DNA from: Paramagnetospirillum magnetotacticum MS-1
Lineage (GTDB): Bacteria; Pseudomonadota; Alphaproteobacteria; Rhodospirillales; Magnetospirillaceae
NCBI RefSeq assembly: GCF_000829825.1
Contig: NZ_JXSL01000030.1
Coordinates: 999,501 to 1,063,500 of the forward strand
Direction: 5' to 3'
Length of the DNA stretch: 64,000 bases
This document shows, piece by piece, positions 47,752 to 51,829 of this stretch. The notes below the pieces were generated by a model, which saw only the letters and a program-made list of their open reading frames with translations, did no database searches and had not been told where the DNA came from. The position numbers and the translations under genes are program-made. Within the stretch, counting starts at the first letter, position 1; every line of letters begins with the position of its first letter.

Positions 47752-49116
47752 CTACCAGATGAAGAAGAACACCCCCCACATGCCGATCTGGGCGAAAGCG
47801 CCAGCCAGCCCCAGAAGCCAGGCCCCCAGGCGGCGGGCCAGGACGGCACCAGGCAGCGAGCGCCACATCAGCACCGCGCTCCAGACCAGGCCCAGGATCA
47901 GCAGCCCGGCGCGGGCGTCGGGAACCCAGGCCAGAAACACGCCCTCGGCGGTGAGTTGGGTCAGCGTCATGGCCGACAGGCCGATGATCAGCCCCACCGC
48001 CCCGGCGGGCACCAGCCCATAGCCCAGCCGCCACAACAGGCGGGGCTGGCCCAGGAGACGTGCGGCGGCGGCCAGTCCGGCCAGCCCGATTCCACCGAAC
48101 AGCAGCGACGCGCCGCCCATATAGGCCAGGATGCAAAAGCCATCGAGCAAGGTGAACACTTCGCCGGTCTCGTCGGAATTGGTCAGCAGCCACCAGGGCA
48201 GGGTCTCGGTCATGGGAAAGGTGATGCCAGCCTCCACCAGCATGGCCGCCAGCCCCTGCTTGAGCGCGATGAACACCGGCGAGGCCGACCACTGGAAGGC
48301 TCCGCTGGCCACCCCCATCACCCCGAACAGCAGCAAGACGATGTCCCAGGGCGAGACTTCGCGGGCGGGCAGGGCGGCGATCTCGGCGCCGGGCAGGCGC
48401 GGCGCCAGCTCCACCGCGCCTCGGTGGCCGGAACAGCGGCCGCACATATGGCACGAGCCGCCGCCGGTCATGGCGCGCACATCCACCAAGGTGGCGCAGT
48501 TGACCGCATGGGCGCGCGGCGCCGTCTTCCAGGTCTCGGCATCGACCCGGAAATGGACGGGCGCCAGACGCGACAGCAGCGAGAATACGCCGCTGGCCGG
48601 GCAGAGATAGCGGCACCACACCCGCTTGCCCCGGCCATAGACCAAACCGATGCCCAGCGCCATCACGGTGGAGGCGCCAAGGATCAGCAAGGCCGCCTTG
48701 GGGTATTCATAGACGGTGATCATCTGGCCGTAGATTGTGGTGCAGACGAAGGCCACGAAGGGCCAGCCCTTCCAGCGCAGCCAGGCGGGAATGGCGCGGC
48801 CCAGGCCGTGGCGGCTGACCCATTCGGTCATGGTGCCTTCGGGACAGAACAGCCCGCACCAGGCCCGGCCCATTACCACCATGCTGACCATGACGAAGGG
48901 CCACCACACCCCCCAGAAAGCGAATTGGGCAAACAGCACCAGATCGTCCCAGATATGTTTGGAATCATCGGGGACCGGCAGAAAGGCCGGGGCGGTGACC
49001 AGGAAAAGATAGATGACCACCATCAGCCACTGTGCCGCCTGGATCGGCCGGGAATGGCGCGCCAGCCAGTGACCGGCGGAGGCGAGCGGATGAAAGCGCA
49101 AAAGCATGGCGGTCAT
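47752..49116 (-). CDS. Polyferredoxin membrane protein of an iron-uptake locus (FtrD/NapH-NosR-like)
   Basis: A 454-residue integral membrane protein with about ten hydrophobic segments. It has two CxxxCP ferredoxin-type motifs, CGLFCPEG and CRYLCPAS, and a third cysteine cluster CHMCGRC, so it may bind iron-sulfur clusters and pass electrons across the membrane. Homologues accompany P19, cupredoxin and FTR1 in Ftr-type iron uptake, where they are thought to handle electrons for iron redox steps. I start at the ATG 49114-49116, with GAGG six bases upstream; the ATG at 49161 lies in an RF-3 palindrome. It is downstream of the porin gene. Confidence 0.82.
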   Translation of the reverse strand: MTAMLLRFHPLASAGHWLARHSRPIQAAQWLMVVIYLFLVTAPAFLPVPDDSKHIWDDLVLFAQFAFWGVWWPFVMVSMVVMGRAWCGLFCPEGTMTEWVSRHGLGRAIPAWLRWKGWPFVAFVCTTIYGQMITVYEYPKAALLILGASTVMALGIGLVYGRGKRVWCRYLCPASGVFSLLSRLAPVHFRVDAETWKTAPRAHAVNCATLVDVRAMTGGGSCHMCGRCSGHRGAVELAPRLPGAEIAALPAREVSPWDIVLLLFGVMGVASGAFQWSASPVFIALKQGLAAMLVEAGITFPMTETLPWWLLTNSDETGEVFTLLDGFCILAYMGGASLLFGGIGLAGLAAAARLLGQPRLLWRLGYGLVPAGAVGLIIGLSAMTLTQLTAEGVFLAWVPDARAGLLILGLVWSAVLMWRSLPGAVLARRLGAWLLGLAGAFAQIGMWGVFFFIW

Positions 49117-49139
49117 GGCAAACCTCAAGGGACGCAACC

Positions 49140-49161
49140 ATGCCCCACGAGGGCGGGGCAT
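49140..49161. repeat. RF-3 palindrome between porin and polyferredoxin genes
   Basis: On the minus strand ATGCCCC-GCCCTCGT-GGGGCAT. It shares the core TGCCCCGCC-N-TCG-N-GGGGC with the two palindromes in corC (4836-4900). Here it is in the 85-base gap before the polyferredoxin gene. Confidence 0.6.
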
Positions 49162-49201
49162 GGCTGTTATTAATATTGCAACGCAGAGTTATTCGCATCC
49201 A

Positions 49202-50668
49202 TCAATATGTCAATTGCCCCCTCAGCCCCAAGGCATAGGCCACCTCGCCCGACGGATTTCCACCGGGATGGCGGATAAGTTGGAAATCGGGTGTGAGGTC
49301 GAAGCGGGGCATGACGCGATAGCGGTAGTATAGCTCGGCACTTTGCTCGAAGGCGGTCGCCTTGTAGCCCAGGTCGGGGGTGCCGTCATTGTCGTTGTCG
49401 AGTCTCGCCGATTTGTCGCGGTACGTCTTGGACACATGGTTGGCCACCAGACCGAGACCCAGTCCGTCGGCCCCACGTCCCCAGTACGAGCCGTTGACCT
49501 CGCCGCCCGCGCTGACACTCTGGTCAAAGCGGGTCTTGCCCTTCAACTGATAGCCGTAGCGGCCGAACAGGGTGACGTAATCATCCACCTTCTGGTCCAG
49601 GGACAGTCCGACACCGGCATGTCTGCCCCGCTTGTTGTCGAAGTCCGTCGCCCGGTCGTTGGTCCAGCCATAGACGCGGTACGTGCCTTCCAGTCCGTCG
49701 AAGAAGCGTTCGGTGGTCTCGGCCTGAACGATGCGGAAGGGGAATTCGTTGGAACCCTGAAACGACGCCCCGGTACCGGTTTCGAAGACGGCGGCCTGCA
49801 CCTTCCACTTGTCGGCATCGCTGACATAGGCAAGACGCAAACCGGGCGAGAAGCCGAAGGGGTCGACTCCCACATCACCGCCCGCGTCCAGCAGCGCGTT
49901 ATGGACCAGGGTGGAGTTCATGAAATAGATGGTCTCGTCATTGGCCACGGCGTTCTTGTCGAAGAAGCCGAAGGGATCCATCTTGCCCGCGGTGATCTCC
50001 ATGTGATGCTTGGCCGTCTTCATGTCGCCGCCGAACGGCACGTCCAACTGGTACCAGGCTTCCACCAGACCGATGGCGGCGTCGGTATTGTCGGCGCCGG
50101 AACGCTGGAAGGCCGTCCCGTTGACCGAGGCCAAGGAGTTGCTGACATTGCTTAAGCCCCGGCCCTGGCCCATGCGCAGATGGGTGAAGATGGTGCCCCG
50201 GTTGTCGCCGACGGTGCCCGCGGGGATGGTCAGGGTGACGTCGCCGCGCCAGTTGAGCTGGCCGTCCTTTTCCTGCGACTGGCCGATCAGGTTCTGGCCG
50301 ACCACGGTCATGCCCGCGCCCACCTTGATACCGCCCAGCACGTCGATGGTCTTGGAGCCCTTCTTGTAGGACAAGATATCGTTCTCGGCCGCCTTCAGGC
50401 GGGCGGCGATCTGAGGCTCGGTCTCGCTGATCGTGTCCTGGTCCATGGCCTTTTCCATGGCGGCGTTATGGTTTTCCAGCTTCTCGATGCGCTGCTCGAT
50501 GGGGGCCTGGGCCGTCTTGGCGCGCTCGAGCTCTTCCACCCGGCTGGCCAGGCGGCGGATCTCGGCGAGAAGTTCGGCGGTGCCGGGCTCCTTGGGGGCG
50601 GCGGCGAGGACGGGGCTGGCGGCCAGCAAGCCGATGGCCGCCACCGAGATCACGGAACGGGCGCGCAT
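49202..50668 (-). CDS. Outer-membrane porin of an iron-regulated locus
   Basis: A 488-residue protein with a signal peptide (about 1-22), an N-terminal coiled coil (about 30-90) and a long beta-strand-rich region ending in aromatic QLTY, as for outer-membrane barrels. GLGLVANHVSKTYRD and AELYYRYRVMPRFDLTPDFQLIRHPGG resemble the OprB/carbohydrate-selective porin group, whose members end in a similar block. It lies between P19 and the polyferredoxin gene and overlaps P19 by one base, so it may admit a metal or metal chelate. Substrate is not known. Confidence 0.8.
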   Translation of the reverse strand: MRARSVISVAAIGLLAASPVLAAAPKEPGTAELLAEIRRLASRVEELERAKTAQAPIEQRIEKLENHNAAMEKAMDQDTISETEPQIAARLKAAENDILSYKKGSKTIDVLGGIKVGAGMTVVGQNLIGQSQEKDGQLNWRGDVTLTIPAGTVGDNRGTIFTHLRMGQGRGLSNVSNSLASVNGTAFQRSGADNTDAAIGLVEAWYQLDVPFGGDMKTAKHHMEITAGKMDPFGFFDKNAVANDETIYFMNSTLVHNALLDAGGDVGVDPFGFSPGLRLAYVSDADKWKVQAAVFETGTGASFQGSNEFPFRIVQAETTERFFDGLEGTYRVYGWTNDRATDFDNKRGRHAGVGLSLDQKVDDYVTLFGRYGYQLKGKTRFDQSVSAGGEVNGSYWGRGADGLGLGLVANHVSKTYRDKSARLDNDNDGTPDLGYKATAFEQSAELYYRYRVMPRFDLTPDFQLIRHPGGNPSGEVAYALGLRGQLTY

Positions 50669-51231
50669 CAGTAGCCGCCCTTCTTGCCCACTCCGGCGAA
50701 GACGAATTCGTAATTCAGCTTGAAGGCGGGGAACCAGGGACGCACGCCCGTGGCGCGGTCGGTGTGGCGGCCGTAATGCTTGCCCGACGCGTTCTCGGGG
50801 GCATTGGGCGGATAGATGGTGTAGGTGACCTTGTACTTGCCGGGTCCCTTCATCTTGACGTTGTCGCCGTAATGGGGGCCGTCATTGGCGACCATGGGCA
50901 TCATCTCGCCCTTGATCACTTCGCCGGTATCGACCTTGACCAGTTCGTAGCCGACCAGCAGATAGGGAATCCACGATCCTTCGGGATAGCCGTTGGGATT
51001 GCCCTGCAACGCCTTGATATCGGCTTCAATATGGATGTCCGACTGCTCGGGCTGGGCCATCATGCCGTCCGGCTCCATGCGCACCGCCTGAAGATAGACG
51101 GCGCCGATTTCCATGCCGTAACGGCTTTCCGGGGCGCCGATGGGATATTCCACCGCCAGGGCGGGGCCGCAGGCGGCGGAGAATCCGGCCAGGAGGCCGA
51201 GGGTGGGAAGTAGGGTCTGGCGATTGATCAT
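50668..51231 (-). CDS. P19-family periplasmic iron/copper-binding protein
   Basis: A 187-residue exported protein (signal peptide about 1-26) of the P19/Tpd family. Such proteins bind copper and iron in the periplasm and work with an FTR1 permease in uptake. GAPESRYGMEIGAVYLQAVRM, HIEADIKALQGNPNGYPEGSWIPYL and DGPHYGDNVKM carry the conserved Met/His ligands, and HYGRHTD near the end is a further histidine site. It heads a porin-polyferredoxin operon and diverges from a cupredoxin gene. A Fur-box-like site lies just upstream. No FTR1 gene is in the window. Confidence 0.88.
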   Translation of the reverse strand: MINRQTLLPTLGLLAGFSAACGPALAVEYPIGAPESRYGMEIGAVYLQAVRMEPDGMMAQPEQSDIHIEADIKALQGNPNGYPEGSWIPYLLVGYELVKVDTGEVIKGEMMPMVANDGPHYGDNVKMKGPGKYKVTYTIYPPNAPENASGKHYGRHTDRATGVRPWFPAFKLNYEFVFAGVGKKGGY

Positions 51232-51255
51232 GGGGGCCTCTGAGGGGAGAATGGA

Positions 51256-51280
51256 TGCAAATGCAAGTGACTCGCAATAG
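51256..51280. promoter_or_regulatory. Fur-box-like operator upstream of P19
   Basis: TGCAAGT (51262-51268), G, ACTCGCA (51270-51276) forms a 7-1-7 inverted repeat with one mismatch, within the typical TGCAAATGCAAGTGACTCGC form of Fur sites. It lies about 30 bases before the P19 ATG. Confidence 0.6.
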
Positions 51281-51450
51281 CAGTCCTAGCCATTTCGCAC
51301 GCTCCTGTCAACAGCCACAATTTAATCACGGGTTCTCGCCCCCTGCCCCAGCCCGGTCTAAAAATCTGTAAAACAAGAATGAAAACAGTTAGTTATGGGA
51401 TGTAACCATTATTCCCACAATCCCGGTCTGGACAAAGGGCTAGATCTTGC

Positions 51451-51477
51451 GTATGAGAATGATAAACGTTCTCATAC
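51451..51477. promoter_or_regulatory. Fur-box-like operator upstream of the cupredoxin gene
   Basis: GTATGAGAA (51451-51459) and TTCTCATAC (51469-51477) are perfect inverted arms around TGATAAACG, close to the classic Fur box. It ends 13 bases before the cupredoxin ATG, so bound protein would cover the ribosome site region or the transcription start. Confidence 0.7.
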
Positions 51478-51490
51478 TGAAAGGATCACC

Positions 51491-51829
51491 ATGTCCGCCC
51501 TTCTCCGTCTGAGCCTTGCCGCCATCTTCCTTGCCCTGTGCAGTCCGCCCGCCAAGGCCGCCGAGGAGGTATTGGTCAAGTTGACCATCAAGGATCATCG
51601 CTTCACCCCCGATCGGCTGGAGATCCCGGCCAGGACCAAGGTGATCCTTCTGGTCAGGAACGAGGATGCCGAGGCCGAGGAATTCGAATGCGTGCCGCTG
51701 CGCCGCGAGAAGATCGTCTTTCCCGGCACCGAGATCAGAGTGGTCCTGGGCAAGGTCGAACCCGGCGAATACCCCTTTGTCGGCGAATACCACGAGGCCA
51801 CGGCCAAGGGTGTGATCATCGCCCGGTAA
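51491..51829 (+). CDS. Periplasmic cupredoxin-like protein of the iron-uptake locus
   Basis: A 112-residue exported protein with a signal peptide (about 1-21, cut after AKA) and a small cupredoxin fold: VKLTIKDHRFTPDRLEIPART, VRNEDAEAEEFECVPL and YPFVGEYHEATAKG. Similar proteins accompany P19 and FTR1 (FtrB-like, or the EfeO cupredoxin part) and are thought to oxidise ferrous iron. The usual C-terminal copper ligands are only partly recognisable. AAGGA lies before the ATG at 51491. It diverges from P19 with a Fur-like box on each side. Confidence 0.82.
   Translation: MSALLRLSLAAIFLALCSPPAKAAEEVLVKLTIKDHRFTPDRLEIPARTKVILLVRNEDAEAEEFECVPLRREKIVFPGTEIRVVLGKVEPGEYPFVGEYHEATAKGVIIAR

Follow-up and report, generated by a model that had tools for sequence, protein, structure and literature searches.

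The P19 locus of Paramagnetospirillum magnetotacticum MS-1 as a probable split Ftr importer with an unlinked FTR1 permease

A stretch of 64,000 nt from the genome of Paramagnetospirillum magnetotacticum MS-1 (the window) harbors a locus for the periplasmic iron-binding protein P19 (FtrA), an OprB-family porin, an FtrD-like polyferredoxin and a divergently transcribed cupredoxin. This locus probably encodes a split Ftr importer for ferrous iron, the permease of which would be an unlinked FTR1 protein, encoded on contig C23, of a class other than the operon permease FtrC and under the control of a shared promoter site. The locus thus resembles a known system in divided form more than one that lacks a permease. 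The computational analysis revealed the gene content of the locus, a single FTR1 in the genome, a promoter site common to the P19 and FTR1 genes, separate clades of FTR1 and cupredoxin proteins, and a distribution of FtrC complementary to that of the distant FTR1 class. The feature that remains unusual is the unlinked permease of another class together with a cupredoxin outside the FtrB clade.

A single unlinked FTR1 and a shared promoter site

The initial annotation of the window, made from the sequence alone, had described a P19 locus lacking an FTR1 permease and had proposed a search of the rest of the genome. A profile search covering the whole genome (G000; 4.52 Mb in 36 contigs, with a stated completeness of 100%) found no FTR1 (PF03239) in the 64-kb window. 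The sole match, with 111 bits, was G000:C23:6621-7382, on a contig other than that of the window. The lack of an FTR1 was thus confirmed for the window and not for the genome, and the assumption that there is no permease was rejected. The C23 protein carries the two motifs REVLE and REGAE. In the FTR1 tree it falls into a class distinct from FtrC and also outside of the FetM-like group, and with 136 bits it stayed below the NCBIfam EfeU equivalog cut-off of 255 bits.

The promoter of this FTR1 gene has a site that matches the pattern found on the P19 side of the locus. The 20-base P19-side site of relatives, with at most 3 mismatches, had four matches at three places in the 4.52-Mb genome, namely the P19 promoter (two overlapping matches), the FTR1 promoter, where the site starts 76 bases before the ATG, and C23:82204. 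The reversed 20-base pattern had 0 matches in the genome. A consensus built from P19 sites only (one two-letter place) was found at four places, adding C23:21643. Searching 17 genomes of the genus, we found this consensus at the FTR1 promoter in 6 of the 11 genomes with a distant FTR1, while its reversed form had 0 matches in 17/17. The only match in G032 was at FTR1; in G027 the P19 site was matched and the FTR1 promoter was not. The chance that a 300-base stretch holds one of 4-6 places is about 0.0003-0.0004 per genome, the related genomes not being independent of each other. The 20-base pattern and the P19-only consensus are the cleaner tests of the shared site. A mixed pattern was shaped partly by FTR1 sites, so that its zero mismatches at FTR1 are circular, and its reversed control gave one match. 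A weight-matrix scan, seeded partly from the sites themselves, was not used as evidence. The third operator-like place (G000:C23:82204-82224; L219:1501-1521) is flanked by an HflK/stomatin-like gene and an AphA-like regulator gene.

The Fur-like box before the cupredoxin gene, GAGAATGATAAACGTTCTC, agrees at 15 of 19 positions with the Escherichia coli Fur consensus. It is the only 19-mer with at least 14 matches in the window; 30 first-order Markov copies of the window contained on average 0.1 sites with at least 14 matches and 0.0 with at least 15. The regulator of the site shared by P19 and FTR1 may be Fur-like. According to the initial annotation, an FTR1 in the same regulon elsewhere, with the same layout in many bacteria, would have made the locus ordinary. 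Since the genome has an FTR1 with a P19-type promoter site, an FTR1 in the same regulon is in substance what we found, the regulator being putative, while the split layout stays unusual.

Spread of the two FTR1 classes

We compared the best 80 of 139 related loci found with P19. The polyferredoxin had a homolog in 76 of them by tblastn; the other four (L014, L022, L032, L035) were cut or too short and not judgeable for FTR1. FTR1 was present within the locus in 60/80 cases. Sixteen of the 76 decidable loci were FtrC-less, with P19 and polyferredoxin both visible and no room for FTR1 between them, because the gaps were smaller than about 270 bases. Of the genomes belonging to 17 loci treated as FtrC-less (these 16 and L014), 13 had an FTR1 elsewhere, and no FTR1 match was found in the other 4. 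All 49 searched FtrC-bearing genomes had an FTR1 match; from this set 10 of the 60 loci (L040, L061, L065, L084-L088, L091, L093) and also L044 were left out.

A quick tree of 92 FTR1 domains separated the operon FtrC (60 rows, branch 94), the distant class (22 rows, branch 99) and the FetM-like group (10 rows, branch 99). The idea that the distant FTR1 is an FtrC that had moved was therefore rejected. By class profiles, the distant class occurred in 4/49 FtrC-bearing genomes (G042, G053, G054, G059). Partial second matches in G060, G069 and G081 were taken as not belonging to it (partial span, long frames) and were left out, as was a third match of G053. Among 23 FtrC-less genomes, a set to which the genus genomes were added and from which L014 was left out, 18 had the distant class (Fisher p 4e-9 against the 4/49, a value inflated by relatedness). 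On the polyferredoxin tree the FtrC-less state required 12 changes, of which well-supported branches forced 8; the counts cannot separate loss from gain of FtrC. A test with independent pairs gave on average 4.8 pairs in the same direction, 0.1 in the opposite direction and 3.2 without difference.

Comparison across the genus, which the initial annotation had suggested, showed the P19 locus in 10/17 genomes. Nine genomes had the locus and the distant FTR1, one the locus only, two the FTR1 only and five neither (Fisher p 0.035).

Several of these results weigh against a fixed partnership of P19 and the distant FTR1. The main one is G029, the genome with the locus only: P19, porin, polyferredoxin and cupredoxin are present (L153), and no FTR1 match was found in this draft, which is 99% complete. 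Altogether the distant FTR1 was missing in 5/23 FtrC-less genomes, G029 among them. Conversely, G021 and G028 (79% complete) have the distant FTR1 and no P19 locus. The median p of the independent-pairs test was only 0.0625. The P19-derived pattern had no match at the FTR1 promoter in 5/11 genus genomes, and, although the letters of the 20-base pattern come from the P19 side alone, the choice of the relative's variant was made with the FTR1 promoters already in view.

Parts of the locus and their putative roles

Pfam matches confirmed the polyferredoxin, P19 and cupredoxin that the initial annotation had placed around a divergent promoter with a Fur-like box, and gene order together with the OprB match confirmed the porin between P19 and the polyferredoxin (Table 1). 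All four genes are open along their whole length. The likely start of the cupredoxin gene is the ATG at 51491 and not the mechanical open reading frame start at 51395. The best solved relatives of P19 are named FtrA-P19 proteins (7r4z and others).

Table 1. Coordinates of genes and putative control sites of the P19 locus in the window.
Feature	Position	Strand	Evidence
Polyferredoxin, FtrD-like membrane protein, Fer4_5	47752..49161	-	Pfam Fer4_5, 42.6 bits
OprB-family porin, taken as FtrP	49202..50668	-	Pfam OprB, 79.1 bits
P19/FtrA periplasmic iron-binding protein	50668..51231	-	Pfam PF10634 (Iron_transport/P19), 213 bits
Operator-like site about 25 bp before P19, common to the distant FTR1 promoter	51256..51276	.	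genome-wide pattern searches
Overlapping reverse match of the operator-like site	51262-51282	reverse	genome-wide pattern search
Fur-like box, 17 bp upstream of the cupredoxin start	51455..51473	.	15/19 to the E. coli Fur consensus; Markov copies as control
Cupredoxin, divergent from P19, outside the FtrB clade	51491..51829	+	Pfam Cupredoxin_1, 91.7 bits; tree; match to 8vuk

In a tree of 47 cupredoxins, the operon FtrB proteins were on one side of a 99/100 branch and the cupredoxin of the window was outside. The divergent cupredoxins of the genus, including that of the window, formed a group (100/98) on the same side of the FtrB branch as the cupredoxins paired with FTR1. With 90 columns and a single, distant outgroup row, this tree did not resolve how the non-FtrB cupredoxins branch among themselves. 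Operon FtrB had been thinned from 65 rows to 23, six operon rows were skipped by the motif filter, and L098 and a second outgroup, L008, were among the others left out. Aligned with the solved FtrB of Brucella (8vuk), the protein of the window retains residues equivalent to E84, E86, E93 and H121 and has G in place of D118 (counted by hand, numbering of PMC11966278); PMC11966278 reports G at this place as frequent in cluster III. A cupredoxin gene adjoined the distant FTR1 in 9/14 rows from FtrC-less genomes and in 4/4 such rows from FtrC-bearing genomes. The rows without it were L094, L099, L102, L105 and L106, the last with only about 260 bases before FTR1, so that a cupredoxin could be out of view. 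Among the 11 genus genomes with the distant FTR1, one (G022) had an adjoining cupredoxin; beside the FTR1 of the window's own genome none was found. G022 (L164:5785-6964) has this cupredoxin directly before the distant FTR1 in addition to the divergent cupredoxin at P19.

The structural model of the porin has four N-terminal helices followed by 16 strands. Its mean predicted local distance difference test (pLDDT) score was 72.8, with low values over about the first 110 residues. The coiled-coil part named in the initial annotation is thus plausible but poorly modelled. The best solved match was Pseudomonas putida OprB (4gey; template modelling score 0.61 by query and 0.70 by target, 19% identity). 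The initial annotation had considered the porin within the operon to be an unusual arrangement. This was rejected: a homologous porin adjoins P19 in 62/80 related loci and is thus an ordinary part of the layout, and a five-component system, FtrAPBCD, is named in PMC11966278. The P of FtrAPBCD may be an OprB-family porin, as suggested by the order P19-porin-cupredoxin-FTR1-polyferredoxin in Rubrivivax benzoatilyticus (L053). An OprB-family porin with Fur boxes, FeoP, is also described for feo operons of Acidithiobacillus (PMC2631029).

In the predicted working, the porin would admit small iron species to the periplasm, where P19 and the cupredoxin would bind iron and copper and oxidize iron or pass it on, as deduced from the characterized FtrA and FtrB. 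FTR1, judged by its family and the motifs REVLE and REGAE, would move iron across the inner membrane, and the polyferredoxin would handle electrons. The partnership of P19 with the C23 FTR1 is likewise a prediction.

Alternative readings and comparison to known systems

The locus might also work without any FTR1 and gather or condition periplasmic ferrous iron for FeoB or another permease. G029 would fit this, as would the four further FtrC-less genomes without an FTR1 match, and the genome of the window has two FeoB_C matches, one of which is preceded by an OprB porin and FeoA. However, these four genomes are metagenome-assembled genomes without stated completeness and may therefore be missing genes. 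Both the promoter site common to P19 and FTR1 and the way in which the two FTR1 classes complement each other across genomes speak against FTR1-free working, which we consider unlikely. A role in copper acquisition or defence instead of iron uptake could be suggested by the cupredoxin and P19 families, since copper binding is established for relatives (for FtrB in PMC11966278). It is very improbable in view of the Fur-like box before the cupredoxin, the site common to an iron permease gene, and the presence of the same gene set beside FTR1 in 60/80 loci. We regard it as hardly credible that the locus is a decaying remnant of an FtrAPBCD operon after the loss of FtrC. FtrC is indeed missing from the gene row, contig C36 of the genome carries a decayed P19/porin remnant, and the porin of a relative (G024, L016) reads as two frames; yet the four genes of the window are fully open, the locus occurs in 10/17 genus genomes, and the alignment of P19 with solved FtrA-P19 runs from residue 15 to the end of P19.

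The FtrAPBCD system was reportedly first described by Steunou et al. (2022) in Rubrivivax gelatinosus. The P19 locus of the window shares with it P19/FtrA, the porin directly beside P19, the polyferredoxin FtrD in the row, and a cupredoxin (system cited in PMC11966278). It differs by a row without FTR1, by a divergent cupredoxin outside the FtrB clade, and by an FTR1 of another class that is unlinked. By analogy, the locus would work like FtrAPBCD; it does not strictly belong to that system, since the row lacks FtrC and its cupredoxin falls outside the FtrB clade.

A pair of cupredoxin and FTR1 (EfeU-type) genes is described for Leptospirillum in PMC2631029. A cupredoxin gene often precedes FTR1 of the distant class, and the cupredoxin of the window is on the same side of the tree; however, the FTR1 of the window's genome has no adjoining cupredoxin, and the Leptospirillum pair is likened by description only. 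FetMP-type systems likewise combine P19 with an FTR1 permease, and the genus members G023, G027 and G021 have such a row of FetM-like FTR1, polyferredoxin, two P19 and an OprB porin. The locus of the window differs in having no adjoining FTR1, and by the tree the genome's FTR1 is not FetM-like. FeoPABC of Acidithiobacillus (PMC2631029) has the same porin family serving a ferrous-iron permease, and Fur boxes, but the permease is FeoB instead of FTR1 and there is no P19.

Tentatively, the Ftr system may be modular in a wider sense: FtrC would be repeatedly lost or gained, with an unlinked cupredoxin-FTR1 pair of another class acting in trans. In the magnetospirilla this pair would itself be split, with a cupredoxin of its type beside P19 and a shared operator tying the permease to the P19 operon, and the system would be one iron route feeding magnetite. 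The initial annotation spoke of a magnetite-forming lineage, and the genome carries magnetosome genes (contig C36 has matches to the MamD and MamG models). When Magnetospirillum gryphiswaldense loses FeoB1, its magnetite formation is reduced but persists, and additional routes of uptake are described as unidentified (PMC11565563). The split system is a concrete candidate for an iron-uptake route in a genus related to M. gryphiswaldense. In general, loci with P19 and no FTR1 may be complete systems whose permease is encoded elsewhere and could be traced through a shared promoter site. In the literature searched, with most subscription papers outside, we found nothing on P19/FTR1 iron uptake in magnetotactic bacteria, which does not show its absence from print, and, with the same limits, nothing matching Rubrivivax gelatinosus with FtrA/P19. 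PMC2631029 mentions Magnetospirillum solely under iron efflux.

Two further rows were seen in the genome of the window. Contig C36 (L004:5658-6922) carries a decayed row with a gene for a small periplasmic protein, the start of an FTR1, and fragments of P19 and of a porin, at a distance of about 5 kb from mamD/mamG-type genes; its intact counterpart is present in G023, G027 and G021. At G000:C19:14011-17933 (L229:2012-5934), an OprB-family porin gene stands directly before FeoA and FeoB and is itself preceded by a weak version of the operator that has 3 mismatches to the mixed pattern. The arrangement of porin, FeoA and FeoB resembles FeoPABC of Acidithiobacillus (PMC2631029).

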